DNA of 64,000 nucleotides from Lampris incognitus. Its lineage: Eukaryota; Chordata; Actinopteri; Lampriformes; Lampridae. The notes below the pieces were generated by a model. That model was not told the DNA's origin and did not search any database. It saw only the letters and a list, made by a program, of their open reading frames with translations. The position numbers and the translations under genes are program-made. The number at the start of each line of letters is the position of its first letter. Positions within the stretch are counted from its first letter, which is position 1. The stretch lies in the NCBI RefSeq assembly GCF_029633865.1, contig NC_079230.1:27445163-27509162 (forward strand), read 5' to 3'. Shown piece after piece: positions 13,344-47,871 of this stretch.

Positions 13344-16300
13344 TCAAACGTTGTTTGTTTGGCTGTTGGTTTGTTTTGCTTTCCCTCTCTGCAGACATCT
13401 GCGTCGCTTCTCGGGTAAGAGCAGATTCCTCCTGACCATCCAAGGCTTAAGGAACTCCCTCAGCGTGGGAACGTAGGTGTTGTGTTTGGTCTTGAAATAA
13501 CGCTTCACAAACAGCTGAGGGGAAAAAGAGACAAGACCTTTGCTAGAGGTGCACTGGTGTGACAGAGTTCTGCAGATAATGGACATTGTATTACTGAGCG
13601 GGCTTCAGGTTGTTAGGACTTGGAAATGGACTGAGATCTGAGAACACATACCCTGCTTTTGAAGTTCTTTGTGGCCTCGTCCTCCGAGTCACCTATGAAG
13701 TCTTCACCGTCTCTTGGCTTGGAAAAGGTCTCTGAACAAGAAGTTGAGAACACAGGTGTTGAACAGGACAGGACTCGGGAGGTTGTCATGCATATACATT
13801 CAAAAATATTTTACTGACTGTTTGCAAGACTTACCTGCATCCCTTCCCTGAAGTGAGGAACTTCTCTGACCTGGTAATACAAGGTGATTCCTGCCAGACA
13901 ATATAACACAAGAAAATCTTGGGGAAAAAAAGCGATAGTTCATTTCAGTAGTTTCTTAATAGTGAATAAAGAGACGAGAAGTCTATGCATTAATTCAGGG
14001 CTAACTTCCTCGTCAGATTAGCAGTGACTCAAGCGACACACCAGAAGTTTTATCAGTAATTTGGCTTGACGATGCCAATTCCTTTAAGTGTTGTTGTTTT
14101 GACATGTGGTGACTGTGATAGGACTTGCAGTGCAACATTCAAACTATACTTTTGAGACAAGCTCAGTAACACACCAGAATGAAAAACTGGAAAATTAAAA
14201 TATAAAAGCAACAACAGAACCACTTCATAATCTTTATTAGAAGAGCGCACACGTTGCGTCGTAAAACTGCATATCACCATTGCCAGGCAGAGTGGCTCTC
14301 ACAAAGTGCTTGAGTAACATTCTCATGTAGAATCTATGAAGCTTGAATGATAGGTTCACGTTTTTCAAGCCAGACCTCATTAAAACATTTTCAGGCATCA
14401 TTCACGATCGACACAGAGAAAACCTTCAGTGATGGTTTCAGTATTGAGAAACTCAGCACTTTACTGCATATTCTAGTTGGGTTTGTGTACTGCAGGCTTT
14501 CCGTTGCTATATCATGGTTTTTGATGGAACAATTGTTCCATCGGACCGTATTGAAGCCCAATGAGAAGATTTAGCGAAGTGTTTACATTACATTACAGTC
14601 ATTTAGCCGACGCTTTTATCCAAAGCGACTTACAATACGTGCATTTAACGTAGAAAATCAGGAGAACTACTAGTCATCAGAGGTCATAAGTGCATCTAAA
14701 CAAGCATCTAAGAGCAAAACCTGTGCTAAAGTAAAAGCGCAAGAAAGAGATTTTTTTTTTTTTTATGAGTGAGTACAATAAGTGCTAAGAACAAGTAACG
14801 GGATAGTAGTTCTTAAAGAGGTGAGTTTTCAACCTGCGCCGAAAGATGGGCAGCGACTCCGCTGTCCTGACATCAGTGGGGAGTTCATTCCACAACTGTG
14901 GGGCCAGGACAGAAAAGAGCCGTGACCGGGTCGATCGGCAGCAACGGCCTCTGAGCGACGGGGCAACCAGGCGTCCCAAGGCAGCAGAGCGAAGTGGTCG
15001 GGCGGGGGTGTAGGGCTTGACCATGGCCTGGAGATAGGAAGGCGCTGTTCCTTTCACTGCCCTGTAGGCTAGCACCAGAGTCTCAAACTGGATGCGAGCA
15101 GCTACTGGGAGCAAGTGCAGGGACATGAGAAGGTGAGTTGTGTGGGAGAACTTAGAGCGGTTGAACACCAGACGAGCTGCATTTTTCTGAACAAGCTCCA
15201 GAGATCTGATGGCCGACGCCGGGGTGCCAGCAAGGAGGAAGTTGCCGTAGTCCAGCCGGGAGATGACCAGAGCCTGGATGAGCACCTGTGCCATCTCGTC
15301 GGTGAGGAATGGGTGAAACCTCCTGATGTTATAGAGGAGAAATCTGCAGGAGCGAGCAACCGATGCAACGTTTTCAGCAAATGACAGTTGGTCATCCAGG
15401 ATCACACCAAGATTCCTCACAGTCCGATTTGGCGTCACCACGGTGTTTTCAATGGTGATGGCCAGGTCTCGGTGTGGGCAACCTTTCCCCGGGAGGAACA
15501 TCAGCTCTGTCTTGTCCAGCTTGAGCTTCAGGTGGTGTGTCGCCATCCACTCCGAGATGTCAGTCAAGCACACTGCAATGTCTGTCTCTACTTGTGTGTC
15601 AGAGGGAGGAAAGGACAAGATCAGCTGGGTGTCATCGGCATAACAATGGTAAGAGAAGTCATGCGAGCGAATAACAGAACCCAGGGAAGTTGTGTACAGG
15701 GAGAAAAGGAGAGGACCCAGAACCGAACCCTGTGGAACGCCTGTAGTCAGTCTGCGAGGCTCTGACACAGATCCCCTCCATGTCACCTGGTAAGAGCGAC
15801 CCGTCAGGTAGGTTGCAAACATTGAGAGTGCAGAGCCTGTGACACCCAGCCCCTCGAGGGTAGAGAGGAGGAACTGGTGGTTCACTGTGTCGAACGCAGC
15901 TGACAGGTCCAGGAGTATCAGGACAGAGGAGAGAGAGAGTTTGCTCTCGCAGAGTGCAGCGATTCTGTCACTGCAAGGAGGGCTGTCTCTGTCGAGTGAC
16001 CCACCCTGAACCCAGACTGGTTGGGATCCAGGAGGTTGTTCTGATGGAGTTACAAAGAAAGTTGGTTAAAGACAGCACGTTCAAAAGTTTTGGATAGAAA
16101 GGGTAGAAGGGAAACTGGTCTGTAGTTTTTGACATCAGAGGGGTTAAGTGATGGTTTCTTGAGAAGGGGGGTGACTCTAGCAGTCTTGAAGGCAGATGGA
16201 AAGCATCCTGCCTGGAGGGAGGTGTTGATGAGGTGGGTTAGATAGGGAAAGAGTTCAGGTGCTATAGACTGAAGAAGAGAGGAGGGGACCGGGTCAAGGG

Positions 16301-37356: not shown

Positions 37357-38336
37357 CGCGGGTGCCGGTTGGGTCTTCGCTCTTCGTCGGCGACGACGTG
37401 CAGCAGGCTGTCTACGGCTCTGCGTCGGCCGAGAAGATATCCCGGGGAACGCTCTGACCTCCGGCGGTCGCTTCATGGAGAGGTCGGGGGCATCTGTGTC
37501 GTCCTCGGCCGGATTCCCAGGATGAGTGGGGGTACTTGCAGGAGAGCTGGTGCGGACAGGCGGTGTATGTGCATCCTCCACTGCGTCCTTATCTTCATCT
37601 TGGAACCCAAGTGGTGTGCGACGTGTAGGTTGTCTAGCAGGCCGTCCGGTGTCTATCCTGTGTTTGACTACATCGAACCGGCCCAGGTCTCCATCGGTTG
37701 CCGCAAAGATGGACTGGTACTTCAGGAGAAGAAGGAGAAATGCCTCTTGCTGTTCATCACTCAGGCCCTCACTTGCTGAAGTGAACAGTTCTCGAAGATG
37801 GAGAGGCAGGTCTAGCACACTCGCTGGCTTCAGACATCATATCTGCTGCGAGAGCTCAGGAGCCGGTGGTGGGGTTTTGGAGAAGAGATCAGGGGGCTCC
37901 TCCATGGCTTCGACGAGGATTCCAAGGCAGGTGCCTCCCGGAAGGTTCGTGGTGGAAGGAGACAGGTTGCAGATTCTTATAGGCACCCTTTCCTCCATGT
38001 CTACGACGACGCTGCCTGAGGACACGCCGTCCGCCAGTCCAGCTGGCTCCAGGACTGCTGTCACTCCAGGTTTGGGATCCTCCACCACACCCCATACGTC
38101 ACATTCACTTTCCGGAGGAAGGGTTGATGGGTTCAAAAGAAGCACTCTGGAGACGGCATAGTTCTCCACTGACCTCCCAGCGATGAAGCTTGAACACCTT
38201 GATGAACACCTTGCCTTCGCCAGTGTTAGCGTTCCGAAGCTAGCTAGCTAACGTCAGCTGTTAGCACAAACGGCTAGGCTGCTGGACTGTTCCGAGACTT
38301 CTTCTGACAGACACAATCCCGTTTCCTGACACCATT
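37357..38336 (-). mobile_element. Ty3/Gypsy-type retrotransposon, deleted internal region
   Basis: Minus-strand frames 37837-38169 and 37297-37818 match the segment between protease and reverse transcriptase of Ty3/Gypsy pol: SRVLLLNPSTLPPESECDVW, then KYQSIFAATDGDLGRFDVVK and HRIDTGRPARQPTRRTP. Gag, the protease core and the reverse-transcriptase core are missing. Immediately beside the LTR (38318-38336), the minus strand reads TGGTGTCAGGAAACGGGA, a plausible primer-binding site. Confidence 0.7.
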
Positions 38337-40322: not shown

Positions 40323-43300
40323 ATGGACACCACAGCTTCAATGTTCAAGTAAGTGGATGTCCTTCGTTACAGACTCTGTTGATCTTCTCCGATAATTCTT
40401 GTTTTTGACAGCGACACAGTCAGCGCACTGTGTTCAGTGGCGCCCCCAGAACTTTTTCATAGGGGGGGGGGGGGCAAATGGGGCCACTGAAAATCTTGGG
40501 GTGGCACACCAAAACCAAAAGCCATGACTGAATTTCGGGAATTCTATGCTGCTACTGTGGTAGTGTACTGTATAGCCTAGTGGAAAACTGTCAATATGAG
40601 AGTTAAGAAAAATATACATTATTGATTTAAATGAACAGCACCTAATGTCAAATATCAGATAGAAGCATATTATGCATAATCAGAAGCATATTCTGCATAT
40701 GCGACTCGTGGCTGGGGGGGGCCAGCGGGGGGGGGGGGCTGGGATAGTATCAGGGTGGCCGTGGCCACACCTGGCCACCCCTTGGGGGCGCCACTGACTG
40801 TGTTGGCTGATCATCAAATGAAACAGGCAGAATGAGGTGAAAACACAACTGAACATGTCGTGTGTTGGCGGGTTTTCCTTGATCCTTTCGCTAATTCATA
40901 GGTAATTAAGTAATTAAGAGCCCGGGGATATACGCGTCTCAAATGACAACCAAGTCATACTTGAACAGTGGTTCTACTGCGGCGAATTGTTTACAAAAGT
41001 GAAAAATGGAAAACATGAGATTTAAAAAAAAAACACACTTATAGGGTAAGTAAAATTAATGAAACCAAAACTGATATGGCATGGGGGTATTCTGGGGGTA
41101 TTCTGGGGGTATTCTGGGGTGTAGTGTGGAAACACAAGTAACGAAGTCTCAATGGACGATGATGAAGGGCCTGCTGACGTGCCCTGTGTTGACCTACATT
41201 GTCTTTACCTGGCAAAGTCGAGACACGGAAGAATTGTGCCGTTTCTTCGTCTTTCCCTCACACGCACACCCATGCCTCAGTAATACGTATTGCACAACAG
41301 ATCAGTGTTGTATGACGTAACAACAGGCCTACGTATCCTCTGATAGCTGCGTTATCTGCCCGTTATCTACCAGCAGCCATGGATGACTGACGCTAAGCTG
41401 GGTGTGGGCTTGGCTAGTACTTGGATGGGAGACGTCCTGGGAAAACTGAGTTGCTGCCGGAAGTGGTGTTGGTGGGCCAGTAGGGGGCAGTCTTCCCTCT
41501 GGTCTGAATAAAATAAATCCCAACACATTTGCCTATACCTATCAGCAGCCTACCTGGGTGTTAAGTGAGAAGTGTTCCCTGTAGGACCGTGCCTTTTGTC
41601 TAGTTAAACGAGTGTTTACAGCTTCATTTCTCTTGTGTTTACTGGGCCTGTCAGCAGGGTGTCTCTACAGCGGCGTGTCATCAGCTCATACAGTCGATGC
41701 TAACGTTAACTCGTCTGTTTTGGCCCTCCTCAGGTCGGTAACCAGACGGGTGTGGTCGCCGGCGCAGAGGCCATTCAGGGTTTGTTCTCACAACAGGGAG
41801 AGCAGAAAGGGCATCACAGCAGGAAGCCTGGAGGAGCTGAGAGACAGGGTAAGGAGCGAGACCGAGAGAGAGAGAGATGACCACAAAGATAGAAATAAAC
41901 AGAGAAAGCAGGAAAATTGACCCCCAGTCAACCCGTGAGCCTCGACAGAAGGCTCGTCCTCATTCCAAATCAGAAGAATCTGCATATACTGTAATCACAG
42001 GAAGTTGAACCAGTTCATCTGGACACAACGTATATTGACAGATACGTGTCATCACTCATCTAAGTGACCTCTTCGGTCTAAACTGACTGCAGGTTATCCC
42101 CACCCTCATAGACAATACAGTAGCCCCCCCTCCCGGTTCAGGGATTGTCGTTCCCTCTTCACATAGATGGGATAAGAGTACATCTGTCGCCATCTCACAA
42201 TGCTGTGACTGCAAACATCTCCAAATCCTCTGTCAACAGTACACATGGCCATGGAAACTCTAGTTAATGGTCACACATATTTGCATATGAAACCAGTCAT
42301 TGGTTTGGGTCGTTATGCCACTGTACTGTTTATGAGGGTGGGGATACCTGCAGTCAGTTGAGACTGAAGAGGTCACTTAGACGAGTGAAGAAACGTATCT
42401 GTCAATAAACGCTGTGTCCAGATGAACTGATTCAACCTTCTTTCTTTCTTACCTGGATTACTGAAGCCTGCATCCAGACAATAGGACGGGGTCAATGCAT
42501 CAGACAATAGGACGGGGTCAATGCATCAAGACAGTAGGATGGGTTCATTGCATCAAGACAATAGGACGGGGTCAATGCATCAGACAATAGGACGGGGTCA
42601 ATGCATCAAGACAGTAGGATGGGTTCATTGCATCAAGACAATAGGACAGGTTCAATGCATCAAGACAATAGGACGGGTTCAATGCATCAAGACAGTAGGA
42701 CAGGTTCAATGCATCAAGACAGTAGGACAGGTTCAATGCATCAAGACAGTAGGACAGGTTCAATGCATCAAGACAGTAGGACGGGTTCAATGCATCAAGA
42801 CAGTAGGACAGGTTCAATGCATCAAGACAATAGGACGGGTTCAATGCATCAAGACAGTAGGACAGGTTCAATGCATCAAGACAATAGGACGGGTTCAATG
42901 CATCAAGACAGTAGGACAGGTTCAATGCATCAAGACAATAGGACGGGTTCAATGCATCAAGACAGTAGGACAGGTTGAAGGCATCAAGACAATAGGACAG
43001 GTTCAATGCAGAGAACAAATTCGTTGTCACAATATAATTAATTGTAAGAATACGATGACAAAACAGAGTGGCTTCATTTCTTTCTTCTTATATCCTCTTC
43101 ACTGTATATTGCGGTTGTTGCATATCTCTTCCTAAGTTTACTATTTTACGTCTAATTTTCTTCTTTTAGTACTGCCTTCGTTTTACGTGTGTGCTTTTTA
43201 TTTAATGTAAAGTACATTGCACTTTAATGTATGCAATGTGCTACATGGAGGAAGTTTGATTCTGTCCAAAGGTGCACGATGTATCGGTCATCTTATCGTA

Positions 43301-46011
43301 TTGGACGATAATTGCTTAAGATTTTGTTATTGGTATTGGGGCAAATATCAAAATGATGCCCAATGTGCTGCATGAATGAGAGGGAGGACAGCGGAATGGT
43401 GAGGATGCAAGGAGTGGAGGTGACGAAGGCGTATGAGTTTTAATACTTGGGGTCAACTGTCCAAAGTAACGGGGAGTGCAGGAGAGAGGTGAAGAAGAGA
43501 GTGCAGGCAGGGTGGAGTGGGTGGAGAAGAGTGTCAGGAGTGATTTGCGACAGAAGGGTACCAGCAAGAGTGAAAGGGAAGGTTTACAAGGTGGTTGTGA
43601 GACCAGCTATGTTATATGGTCTGGAGACAGTGGCCCTGATGAAAAGACAGGAGGTGGAGCTGGAGGAGGCAGAGATGAAGATGATAAGATTTTCATTGGG
43701 GGTGACGAAGAAAGACAGGATTAGGAAGGAGTATATTAGAAAGTATATTGTGTATATTGTATTGCTGTAAAGCCCACTGAGGCAAATTTGTAATTTGTGA
43801 TATTAGGCCATACAAATAAAATTGACTTGAAATTGACTTGAGGGACAGTTCAGGTTGGACGGTTTGGAGACAAAGCAAGAGAGGCAAGATTGAGATGGCT
43901 GGGACACGTGTGGAGGAGAGATGCTGGGTGTATTGGGAGAAGGATGCTGAATATGGAGCTGCCAGGGAAGAGGAGAAGAGGAAGGCCAAAGAGGAGGTTT
44001 ATGGATGTGGTGAGGGAGGACATGCAGGGTGGCTGGTGTGACAGAGGAAGATGCAGAGGACAGGAAGAGATGGAAACGGATGATCCGCTGTGGCGACCCC
44101 TACTGGGAGCATCTGAAAGTAGTAGTAGTGGTGTTGCACAGACATGATGACACATCAATTACACGCCATTATGTGATGAAAAGACAGGTGGTGCTCAAAC
44201 CTACACTAAAAACAGCGCATTTTGATATTCACAGCAAACAGACGTAAGAGACAGGAAGTTTGAAAACTTCTGCCAAAATAAACATCACGTTTTCTCCGTT
44301 TAAATCATAGTAGTCGGTGTTCATCGGGTCGTAATAAAGGCAGAAATAAAGCAGTGTTGTCTACAGACGTCTGCATCCGCACCAAGAATCACACTTACAG
44401 CATAATACAATCACAATAATAGTAATGACATAGATAAACTACACTAATAGAAACTACGTCACATGGTTGTATTGCAATGACATGTAAAATATCGGTGTAT
44501 CGGCCGAGGTGACCACGGTAATCATCGGTTATCGGCAATCATTTCAATATCCTGCATCCTTAATTGTGGTGACTGTCATTGTGGTGTGTGGTGTAGATGT
44601 GCCAGGCCTTGCTGCTGTCGCTGTCTGCGGCGTCCGTGGCCGTGGTGTGTGAGGAGGACGGTACCGAGGTCGACTCTGAAGACTTCCTGATGACGCTGCC
44701 CGACAACACGGTGCTCATGGCGCTGACGCCCGGACAGACATGGAGGCCACAGCCGGTACGCTGCACCACCGCAGGGGGAGTAAGTCCGCCTAGCGTGGCC
44801 CGGGCTCTGCATTTGTCTTGTTGTCCCTCGCTAGACATCGTGAAAATCACGGTCACAATGGGGTATTATCAGCCGAGTCGGGTTACCTATACGAATAATC
44901 GTGAGTGCGGTCCTTCTCACGAAACTTAAGCAATCACCTGACTTTATAAAAGTACATTCTACTGATGAAATGTGGACACATGTCCGTCGTCTTTGTTTCC
45001 CAGTCTTAAAAGTTTGAGTCCAGGTGTTTTGTCTCTGCCTCCCCCCCAGGGTGCCGTCATTACCAAATATCCAGAAAACAATCCCCGCACCGGAAAAGAC
45101 ATCGCCCGTGTGACCTTTGACCTTTACAGGTTGAACCCCAAGGATATCTTTGGCTCCTTGAACGTAAAGGCCACCTTCCAGGGTCTGTACTCGGTCAGTG
45201 CTGACTTCCAGTGTCTGGGCCCCAAGAAAGTCCTCAGGTAAACCCAGTTACAGGGGGCGAGCCCGGTATGAACAGACAGTAGAGACACAGCGGAAACAAA
45301 TCAAACGAGTTCCCTGTCCGGGTGTTGAGCTCGTTTACTTACACCATTTACAACGTATGCATGTGTAAGGACCACGGATGACCAGACTCGCTAGCCTTTG
45401 GCTATACGACTGGTAACGTAGTCCCCCGTGGTGCGGGAGATCTGGGTTCGCGTTCCGACTGTGGCGGTTCCCGGCTGCTGGCTGAGTTCACTACATTGGT
45501 GTCAGAAGTGGGATGGTGAGACCGTGAGGCCATCGGAAGCGGTGGCGCCCAGAGGCGTGAGGGAGCCGATATGCTGAAGCGCGGGGACGCGCTTCCTGAA
45601 GGAGGGGGGTAGCGTGACGATCACGAATGACTAGAACCGCTAGCCCGTTGGCTAACGGGTCAGACACTTTAGCCGACTGGTTAATGCAGTTGCCCGTGGC
45701 GCGGGCGACCCGCGTTTGCATCCCGGCTGCGGCGGTTCCCAGCTGCCCCCTGAATTCGCTACACATGCATTAATGACACCCTGCTAGCAGATGGTGGGCT
45801 TTGACTTTACTATAGTCTTTGGTGGGTGGTGGCAGGACATTGACGGCATTGTCTGTTTCTCCTCACTTTCAGGGAGGCCCTACGCGTCACCTCTGCTATT
45901 CTGCAGGCCGCCGGACACTTGCTCATCACCTCCGCTTCCATGATCCGCCGCGTCATCGAAGGCATGGAGCTGTGGCAGCCGCAGAGAGAGTACACCGCCA
46001 ACTGGAACTGA
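40323..46011 (+). CDS. cideb: Cell death-inducing DFFA-like effector b
   Basis: CIDE proteins sit on lipid droplets and the ER; CIDEB in mammalian liver promotes VLDL lipidation and droplet fusion. Coding exons: 40323-40348, 41734-41848, 44597-44755, 45050-45237 and 45873-46011. These give 627 nt and 208 residues (human 219), with all phases consistent. CIDE-N (about 10-98): RRVWSPAQRPFRVCSHNRES, CEEDGTEVDSEDFLMTLPDN, LTPGQTW. CIDE-C (about 112-205): GKDIARVTFDLYRLNPKDIF, GSLNVKATFQGLYSVSADFQ, LGPKKVLREAL, then a hydrophobic helix ILQAAGHLLITSASMI, the likely membrane/droplet segment. The start MDTTASMFK is chosen because exon 1 ends in phase 2 at a GTAAGT donor and joins exon 2 in frame. Introns hold a hAT element, a 5S-like repeat, a minisatellite, an RTE LINE and a TRIM-like retroelement. 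CIDEA or CIDEC are less likely given the synteny with TINF2 and GMPR2. Confidence 0.9.
40435..40796. mobile_element. hAT miniature element, copy 2, in CIDEB intron 1
   Basis: Inverted copy of the element at 38483. Ends CAGTGGCGCCCCCAGAA and TTGGGGGCGCCACTG, with flanks ACTGTGTT on both sides (40427-40434, 40797-40804). It starts 87 bp after CIDEB exon 1. Confidence 0.92.
41385..41500 (+). repeat. 5S-rRNA-related repeat fragment
   Basis: GGCTTGGCTAGTACTTGGAT followed by GGGAGACGTCCTGGGAA matches the 3' half (internal control region side) of 5S rRNA, then a unique tail (GTAGGGGGCAGTCTTCCCTC). It is probably the head of a 5S-derived SINE. It is not a functional 5S gene, because the 5' half is missing. 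CIDEB intron 1. Confidence 0.65.
42000..42450. repeat. Palindromic Penelope-type element in CIDEB intron 2
   Basis: The left arm (about 42004-42122) and right arm (about 42325-42446) are inverted copies of one another over about 120 bp: GTTCATCTGGACACAACG at the left, and its complement-like TGTGTCCAGATGAACTGATT at the right. The right arm carries CTGAAGA (42364-42370), a TCACT/AGTGA hairpin, GAAAC and GTA (42395-42397). Confidence 0.7.
42475..43008 (+). repeat. Minisatellite, 27-bp unit, about 19 copies
   Basis: Units of GACAATAGGACGGGTTCAAT followed by GCATCAA, alternating between AGACAGTAGGACAGG and AGACAATAGGACGGG variants. The first few units are slightly longer or shorter. Because 27 is a multiple of three, long frames stay open on both strands (204 and 152 codons). 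They are repeat artefacts, not genes. In CIDEB intron 2. Confidence 0.95.
43375..44125 (+). mobile_element. RTE-type LINE 3' part, split by an L2 fragment
   Basis: Translations 43447-43770 (REVKKRVQAGWSGWRRVSGV, KVYKVVVRPAMLYGLETVAL) and 43890-44147 (RMLNMELPGKRRRGRPKRRF) are the same protein as at 50.0-51.4 kb. The join is broken at 43757-43845 by an L2 3' end. The tail is a short AGTAGTAGTAG run. CIDEB intron 2. Confidence 0.85.
43757..43845 (+). mobile_element. L2 3' terminus nested in the RTE LINE
   Basis: TTGTAATTTGTGATATTAGG and CCATACAAATAAAATTGACT match the last 90 bp of the L2 at 29240. It interrupts the RTE at GAGTATATTAGA / GGGACAG, which is continuous in the 50-kb and 1-kb copies. 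Confidence 0.8.
44130..44590. other. CIDEB intron 2 end, no element recognised
   Basis: No exon or known repeat that I can support before the acceptor at 44595-44596. Confidence 0.5.
45364..45763 (+). mobile_element. Miniature LTR retroelement (TRIM-like) with tRNA-like LTRs
   Basis: A 400-bp unit in CIDEB intron 4. LTR1 is 45364-45495 (TGTAAGG...CTACA) and LTR2 about 45609-45763 (ends CGCTACA). They share blocks such as CGACTGGT-AA-G-AGT, CCCGTGG-GCGGG and GGCGGTTCCC-GCTGC. LTR1 is followed at once by TTGGTGTCAGAAGTGGGAT, a primer-binding-site-like sequence. LTR2 is preceded by the purine run GAAGGAGGGGGG. CATG flanks the unit on both sides (45360-45363, 45764-45767). Nothing coding lies between. 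Each LTR has box-A-like (ACTGGTTAATGCAG) and box-B-like (GGGTTCGCGTTCC) sequences, so the LTRs look tRNA-like. It could alternatively be two related SINE-like units. Confidence 0.6.
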
Positions 46012-46506
46012 GAAAGCGTGGAGAGACCTACACAGTACGGAAACAAGCGTTCAAAAGGGCAACACAGGAACACCCGGCGGACTGATGTCACTCTTCGCCT
46101 GTCTGTAAATAGCATGTAAATAGCTGGTTGGCTTTGCCCCCGCCCCCCTAACTGAGACGCTGGATGTCCACCTTGTCATGATTAATCCCTCTAACGGGGC
46201 TCCAGTGTCTTCGTCGTTGATCTGTCATGAAGCTCCTGCAGTGCTGGAGGTTAACTTTATCCTCGTGCTCTTACATTCAATTCTGTTGTGCGCTAAAAAA
46301 AAATACAAATTTCACAGAGCAGTAATTGAGATAGAACTAGCCAGGTGTATTGTTATATGCGTAGTGATCGTATGACTCTGTGATATGCCAATATACCATC
46401 GTGTCCAATCGTGTGCCATAGAGCTGCATGTGTACGTAGGTTTTCATTCCAACACATTACACCATCTGATGTCACTGATTTGTCCTCCATGTCTGGTTGA
46501 ATGTGT

Positions 46507-46930
46507 GCCCCCCCCCTCCCAATTGAGCCCGGCCAATTACCCCACTCTTCTGAGCCGTCCCGGTCGCTGCTCCACCCCCCTCTGCTGATCCAGGAGGGGG
46601 CCGCAGGCTACCACATGCCTCCTCCGATACATGTGGAGTCGCCAGCCGCTTCTTTTCACCTGACAGTGAAGAGTTTCACCAGGGGGACGTAGCAAGTGGG
46701 AGGATCACGCTATTCCCCCCCAGTTCCCCCCCCGAACAGGCACCCTGACCGACCAGAGGAGGCAATAGTGCAGCGACCAGAACACATACCCACATCCGGC
46801 TTCCCACCTGCAGACAGGGCCAATTGTGTCTGTACGGACGCCTGACCAAGCCAGAGGTAACACGGGGATTCGAACCAGCGATCCCCGTGTTGGTAGGCAA
46901 CGGAATAGACCGCCACATTACTCAGACGCT
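46507..46930 (-). repeat. SINE family A copy in the CIDEB 3' region, inverted
   Basis: Full-length reverse copy with GGGGATTCGAACC at the right. It begins about 500 bp after the CIDEB stop and, if the AATAAA at 47366 is used, lies within the 3' UTR. Confidence 0.85.
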
Positions 46931-47365
46931 CATGGTTGAAGGTGTCTTAATGTGTGACATCAGTGTTGCGTTGTGTTGCGTTGTAATGAAGCCCTGCATA
47001 CACATGGCTCTCTATGGCACATGGTTGGACTCCACCGCGATAAACCGTATGTTTGAACTTCACATATAAAATAAGTAACGGGATAAACAGACACATGCAT
47101 TAATTCTTTTTTTCTTGCTAGTTTGTGAAATTTAGCAACAGGCCTGTCAGTTTGTGATGAAGTGACCCGGGGTCAAATCCCCACGTGACAGCAGATAATG
47201 CTAAACGTCCTGTAAAATACTTGGATTTGATTTGCCCTTTGCTGATTTTCATTTGGAGTGTCGTTTTTCTCCAGTCAGCGGGCGACGGCTGAGCCTGTTA
47301 TTGGTTTCTAGTTTGACCTGGAAGATTGTACATTTCAGTGTAATTGTAACTGCTGACACCAACCT

Positions 47366-47754: not shown

Positions 47755-47850
47755 CGGTTATTTTCTTGCCCGGTGCGGGATTCGATACGGGGTGTACTGC
47801 ACCACAAGGTGACACCGCTAACAGGTCCGACCCGTTAACTAGGGGCTAAC
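47755..47850 (-). repeat. Sequence related to the TRIM-like LTR
   Basis: On the minus strand, CTAACGGGT-like and GTTAGCGGTGTCACC, then CGAATCCCGCACCGGG, align with the order of blocks in LTR2 at 45609-45763. Probably a solo LTR or related SINE-like unit. Confidence 0.45.
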
Positions 47851-47871
47851 GTGTCTTATCAGTAGTTTACA

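Follow-up and report, generated by a model that had tools for sequence, protein, structure and literature searches.

An abundant TRIM family with tRNA-like LTRs and its primer-tRNA chimeras in the fish Lampris incognitus

Gene-less retroelements with pol III-type sequences in their LTRs

Among the described mobile elements, the closest to the one considered here are the Helenus elements (Kojima 2024, PMC10886601). In animals these are TRIMs whose LTRs resemble a tRNA and whose target site duplications measure 4 bp, and fish members are known. As presented in that article, the PBS of the vertebrate forms corresponds to tRNA-His, -Leu or -Lys, and the zebrafish LTR-11_DR represents a fish family, with tandem runs treated in section 3.8. 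A second point of reference is Cassandra, a plant element derived from 5S rRNA, which has a terminator inside its LTR (introduction of PMC10886601) and also forms tandem LTR-internal arrays (PMC7215508).

The window, i.e., the whole stretch of 64,000 nucleotides of Lampris incognitus DNA that was analyzed, contains a 400-bp unit (45364-45763) from a family with the makeup of a TRIM: two LTRs, a PBS, a polypurine tract (PPT), a length below 1 kb, no coding capacity and a target site duplication fixed at 4 bp. Like Helenus, this family is gene-less and combines 4-bp duplications with tRNA-like LTRs bearing box A and box B, and its PBS is one for tRNA-Leu(CAG). Compared by features rather than by Repbase sequence, it fits the Helenus type on every testable defining feature bar the partner; what it has in addition to published Helenus is a subfamily with a 54-bp internal part and chimeras of the order tRNA-CCA-LTR. 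With Cassandra it shares pol III-type promoter sequence in the LTRs, the lack of genes and the tandem arrays; it differs in being an animal element with tRNA-like LTRs, 78 of 81 of which are free of TTTT (the motif occurs in the other three). The Rfam 5S model matched nothing in the window at the gathering score, nor anything in loci L001-L008 up to E 10. The tRNA-derived SINEs (SINE2) resemble the fish TRIM in their tRNA-like box A/B part, shortness and abundance, but are set apart from it by its LTRs, PBS, PPT and 4-bp duplications.

The original prediction had seen in the unit a possible animal analogue of Cassandra. A TRIM with tRNA-like LTRs is indeed present in a fish, but this kind of element is already known, Helenus having been published in 2024 (PMC10886601), and it is the chimeras and the 54-bp subfamily that are worth following. 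On TRIMp3, Helenus, a fish pol III TRIM or a primer-tRNA/LTR chimera we found no report besides PMC10886601, which does not prove that there is none.

The window unit and its copies

Every part of the TRIM layout that had been predicted for the unit, namely two LTRs, a PBS, a purine tract, CATG on either flank and no gene in the 117 bp between the LTRs, is present (Table 1). The PBS and the purine tract had been placed directly beside the LTRs; they are adjacent, but the PBS starts one base past the end of LTR1, and TAG intervenes between the purine tract GAAGGAGGGGGG and LTR2, the first base of which is C, not T. BLASTN pairs the two LTRs with an E of 1e-14, at about 69% identity across 150 columns. 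Their K2P divergence is 0.358, and 22 of 56 other LTRs are nearer to LTR1 than its own partner is; LTR1 further shows a 19-nt deletion relative to LTR2, with part of the box A region gone. Given this divergence and the deletion, the window unit looks like an aged and degraded copy. It lies within a same-strand gene, in a GT..AG intron delimited by eye (45238-45872), and an open frame 0.4 kb upstream of it encodes a CIDE-N domain (E 2.2e-16). The related unit proposed at 47.75-47.85 kb is probably real: its alignment to a family LTR scores 56, against a maximum of 33 for shuffles and up to 38 on the opposite strand.

Table 1. Coordinates of the window unit, its relative and the minimal units (window positions unless a locus is named)
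Feature	Position	Strand	Basis or remark
Target site duplication CATG, left copy, 4 bp	45360..45363	.	sequence
LTR1, 132 bp, TG...CA	45364..45495	+	BLASTN, alignment
Box B-like GGTTCGCGTTC, within LTR1	45445..45455	+	box scan
Internal region, 117 bp, non-coding	45496..45612	+	unit delimitation
PBS TGGTGTCAGAAGTGGGAT	45497..45514	+	18 nt complementary to mature host tRNA-Leu(CAG) 3' end
Polypurine tract GAAGGAGGGGGG	45598..45609	+	sequence
LTR2, 151 bp	45613..45763	+	BLASTN, alignment
Box A-like TAGCCGACTGG, within LTR2	45670..45680	+	box scan
Box B-like CGTTTGCATCC, within LTR2, decayed, 3 mismatches	45713..45723	+	box scan
Target site duplication CATG, right copy	45764..45767	.	sequence
Diverged LTR fragment, TRIM family of window unit	47776..47871	-	alignment
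54-bp-internal units	L082:1397-1707, L083:1343-1708	PBS forward	little besides PBS and purine tract

The window has several other repeats: a tRNA-type SINE at 46500-46940 whose minus strand shows a box B-like motif, translated pieces resembling it in open frames near 2.4, 3.4, 6.5, 20.4 and 58.8 kb (all by eye), an Rfam UnaL2 LINE 3' element at 14593-14646 (-) beside a reverse transcriptase frame (14785-15885), and a tandem repeat at 42521-43135, one frame of which reads MHQDSRTGS-like repeats.

We searched the fish's own genome (1.48 Gb, 537 contigs) for further copies and found at least 53 matches to the window unit, with 40 of the 5,936 first-look candidates scored. A 20-mer of the PBS plus GG has 6,981 genomic sites at up to one mismatch and the LTR-PBS junction 7,036 at up to two, the reversed-pattern control giving none in either case, and exact LTR 3' ends of the family number 10,619 genome-wide. 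The family is thus very abundant, being scattered through the genome in thousands of copies. Close examination covered L009-L038, the first 30 sites of one contig with an exact PBS match (two of them, L025 and L026, lie 237 bp apart in a single array). Internal sequence continues past the PBS in 27 of them, the match in L011, L019 and L022 running for 21-26 nt only; same-strand LTR sequence lies upstream in 27 (all except L009, L026 and L038), within five bases of the junction in 21 of these; and LTR matches, partial hits included, stand at either side of the PBS in 19. The LTR-internal-LTR structure is hence common to the sampled copies, as the original prediction required of full units. Tandem LTR-internal-LTR-internal-LTR runs also occur, and two such arrays have, by eye, the same four bases at both outer ends (CAAG in L005, GTAT in L095). 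A different arrangement is seen at L062:97-1497 (reverse complement of the locus), a satellite-like array in which ten LTRs follow one another every 142 bp or so, without internal parts.

For the marks of insertion, we delimited 37 distinct units by end motifs around 101 PBS-like sites in L001-L038 and L059-L100; the sites include duplicates from overlapping loci, those lacking such motifs were excluded, and a few units are poorly defined. Where genomic flanks were available on both sides, an exact 4-bp duplication was found in 9 of 23 units, a number reached by one of 5000 shuffles; duplications of 3, 5 or 6 bp were found in none, which narrows the anticipated 4-6 bp to four. In a stricter set, 4 of 15 pairs (shuffle mean 1.1, maximum 5) and 2 of 7 single LTRs showed the 4-bp duplication, a result that is not clear when taken alone. 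The expected LTR pairing is borne out in the 29 units retained of the 37, with a mean within-unit K2P of 0.212 (range 0.019 to 0.614) and none of 5000 permuted partnerings as close. LTR2 is the closest LTR to its own LTR1 in just four of these 29 units, some ranks being worsened by LTR sharing in arrays.

The primer tRNA, its chimeras and a minimal subfamily

The PBS was expected to match the 3' end of a host tRNA, and its complement forms the final 18 nt of tRNA-Leu(CAG) once CCA is added. A 22-mer from the 3' end of this tRNA has 39 places in the genome, the first 20 of which we inspected; ARAGORN, run on 14 of these 20 loci, called a tRNA-Leu(CAG) gene at L045 and L055, both ending in GGTTCGAATCCCACTTCTGACA. 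In seven of the 20 places (L041, L042, L052, L054, L056, L057 and L058) we instead found a chimera, in which a partial tRNA-Leu(CAG) is followed by CCA, an A and then the end of a TRIM LTR, the junction lying near position 1498 (PBS forward). By alignment, the tRNA part measures 29 to about 65 nt; in L056 the alignment extends further than the approximately 48 nt recognized by eye. BLASTN confirms an LTR directly at the junction in six of the seven; in L042 the LTR is recognizable, by eye, from its final bases alone, and L041 deviates in the final LTR bases. Across all 39 places, CCAA comes next in 13 and CCA plus another base in three more, while the other eight one-mismatch places of a 24-mer may be PBS sites with a chance resemblance to the tRNA.

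Nuclear tRNA genes are not known to encode CCA; hence, the chimeras are copies of the mature tRNA joined to the LTR. They are what is expected if plus-strand synthesis passes its usual stop near tRNA position 58. Thus, they are fossils of primed reverse transcription and provide direct evidence of PBS use, with mature host tRNA-Leu(CAG) as the primer. Some run on into inverted LTR sequence or purine tract: in L054, the tRNA part leads into a purine tract and then an LTR, and L056 as a whole has GTAT on either side (by eye). We tentatively propose, at somewhat less than even confidence, that reverse transcription of the TRIM sometimes overruns the primer-tRNA stop and switches template, giving rise to chimeras, at least one of which would have inserted normally, and that the primer may in this way supply new internal sequence. 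Neither chimeras nor CCA came up in a term search of the main text of PMC10886601.

A further departure from the standard unit emerged among 30 loci picked because the PBS is followed by a base other than G. The internal part is strongly shortened in six (L063, L067, L072, L082, L083 and L086), down to 54 bp in two of them, L082 and L083, each with an ATAT duplication (Table 1); for comparison, PMC10886601 gives 85 bp for the internal part of the Selaginella element. A 31-mer from the start of the subfamily's internal part has 458 genomic sites at up to three mismatches, a count of that start alone.

Transcription, mobilization and alternative readings

We consider it very probable that the window unit goes back to an old insertion of a Helenus-type TRIM with many copies, one that would be read by RNA polymerase III and reverse-transcribed by the proteins of a partner. 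On this account, transcription would begin shortly before box A of the 5' LTR and proceed through the TTTT-free unit up to a T-run in the flank. The LTR might then need no terminator of its own, since pairing of strong-stop DNA could take place within the 3' LTR. The proteins that reverse-transcribe and insert the TRIM RNA would come from an element of Ty3/Gypsy type, or a retrovirus-like one, that shares the PBS.

As for this partner, the Gypsy-type LTR at 38.3 kb had been put forward as sharing the PBS and as a possible mobilizing element. The likeness proved approximate (38315-38334 on the minus strand; aligned to antisense tRNA-Leu over 20 columns, of which two are mismatched and one is a gap) and escaped an ungapped scan allowing up to five mismatches; with this imperfect PBS and no Pfam match at E 0.1 in two open frames there, we set the candidate aside as unsupported. 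Other LTR families do share the PBS, namely those at L068, L064, L059, L081/L101 and L087. Two of these look Gypsy-like from their coding matches: L068, where a CCHC knuckle was recognized (E 9e-6), and L064, whose protease match (E 4e-4) falls short of the curated cut-off. The remaining ones look retrovirus-like by eye; L059 and L101 have a short open frame with MGNK after the PBS, which we take to be gag-like, and L101:10-5162, with repeats about 96% alike around a 4.3-kb stretch, looks like a defective retrovirus-like element. That such an element rather than a Gypsy one mobilizes the TRIM is rather unlikely: the shared PBS in another LTR family (L059, L087, L101) and the MGNK frames would agree with it, but the TRIM duplications are of 4 bp, L068 combines the same PBS with a CCHC knuckle, and animal Helenus elements are paired with Gypsy in the account of PMC10886601. 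Between the TRIM and the same-PBS families we detected nothing in common past the PBS and the LTR-end letters, the comparison covering 1.5 kb beyond the PBS for most.

Transcription by RNA polymerase III is suggested by the boxes, which we compared in 81 full-length LTR copies, related and hence not independent. Box A and box B at up to three mismatches and with tRNA-like spacing occur together in 63 of the 81, as against 0.46 per 81 shuffled sequences and none on the reverse strand. For the window unit itself, the prediction of tRNA-like boxes in both LTRs holds less well: with an 11-nt form of box A allowed, its boxes are equaled by 37 and 30 of 1000 shuffles, and under our first definition (12 nt only) by 96 and 90 of 500. 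The boxes are thus weak in the window LTRs and strong at the level of the family. Further, when 12 LTRs were compared with seven human tRNAs, the best score was reached by at most two of 200 shuffles in ten, Asp or Gly being the most frequent best match and one alignment running ungapped over 55 nt; in the LTRs of L007 (at 1996) and L070, no similarity stood out over shuffles. A tRNA finder, suggested as a check, accepted none of the LTRs tried: ARAGORN reported no tRNA in the window or L002-L008, and the Rfam tRNA model no match up to E 10 in L001-L008 or one LTR slice. A functional tRNA gene inside the LTR accordingly finds no support in those examined, and the LTR appears to retain promoter boxes without a recognizable tRNA fold.

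The missing cloverleaf would equally suit an ordinary TRIM that depends on RNA polymerase II for its transcription and in which the tRNA-like stretch, left over from a tRNA or SINE captured in the past, has ceased to be a promoter, as would the commonest box B, GGTTCGCGTCC, which has C where the consensus has A. We regard this as quite improbable in view of the correctly spaced boxes in most LTRs and the absence of AATAAA, ATTAAA, TATAAA and TATATA from all 81 copies. Finally, the notion of two tRNA-type SINEs side by side with a PBS by chance, to which the tRNA-like LTRs and their mere 69% identity in the window copy might have lent some color, can be dismissed as next to impossible, being ruled out by the LTR-internal-LTR structure of the copies with its thousands of LTR-PBS junctions and common internal part, by the 4-bp duplications and LTR pairing, and by the tRNA-CCA chimeras at the PBS. 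Alignments of three LTR copies with the window SINE were no better than shuffles, which also eliminates that SINE as the source of the tRNA-like part.

The Helenus-type TRIM favored here adds a high-copy fish case to the LTR elements that bear pol III-type promoter sequence. Its chimeras identify the primer tRNA from the genome itself, via the untemplated CCA, beyond what can be deduced from complementarity, and its 54-bp subfamily bears on the minimal needs of a parasite of LTR retrotransposons. Taken together, the amplified subfamily and the chimeras suggest that an element with a PBS and a PPT may need hardly more than a tRNA-like promoter for successful insertion.
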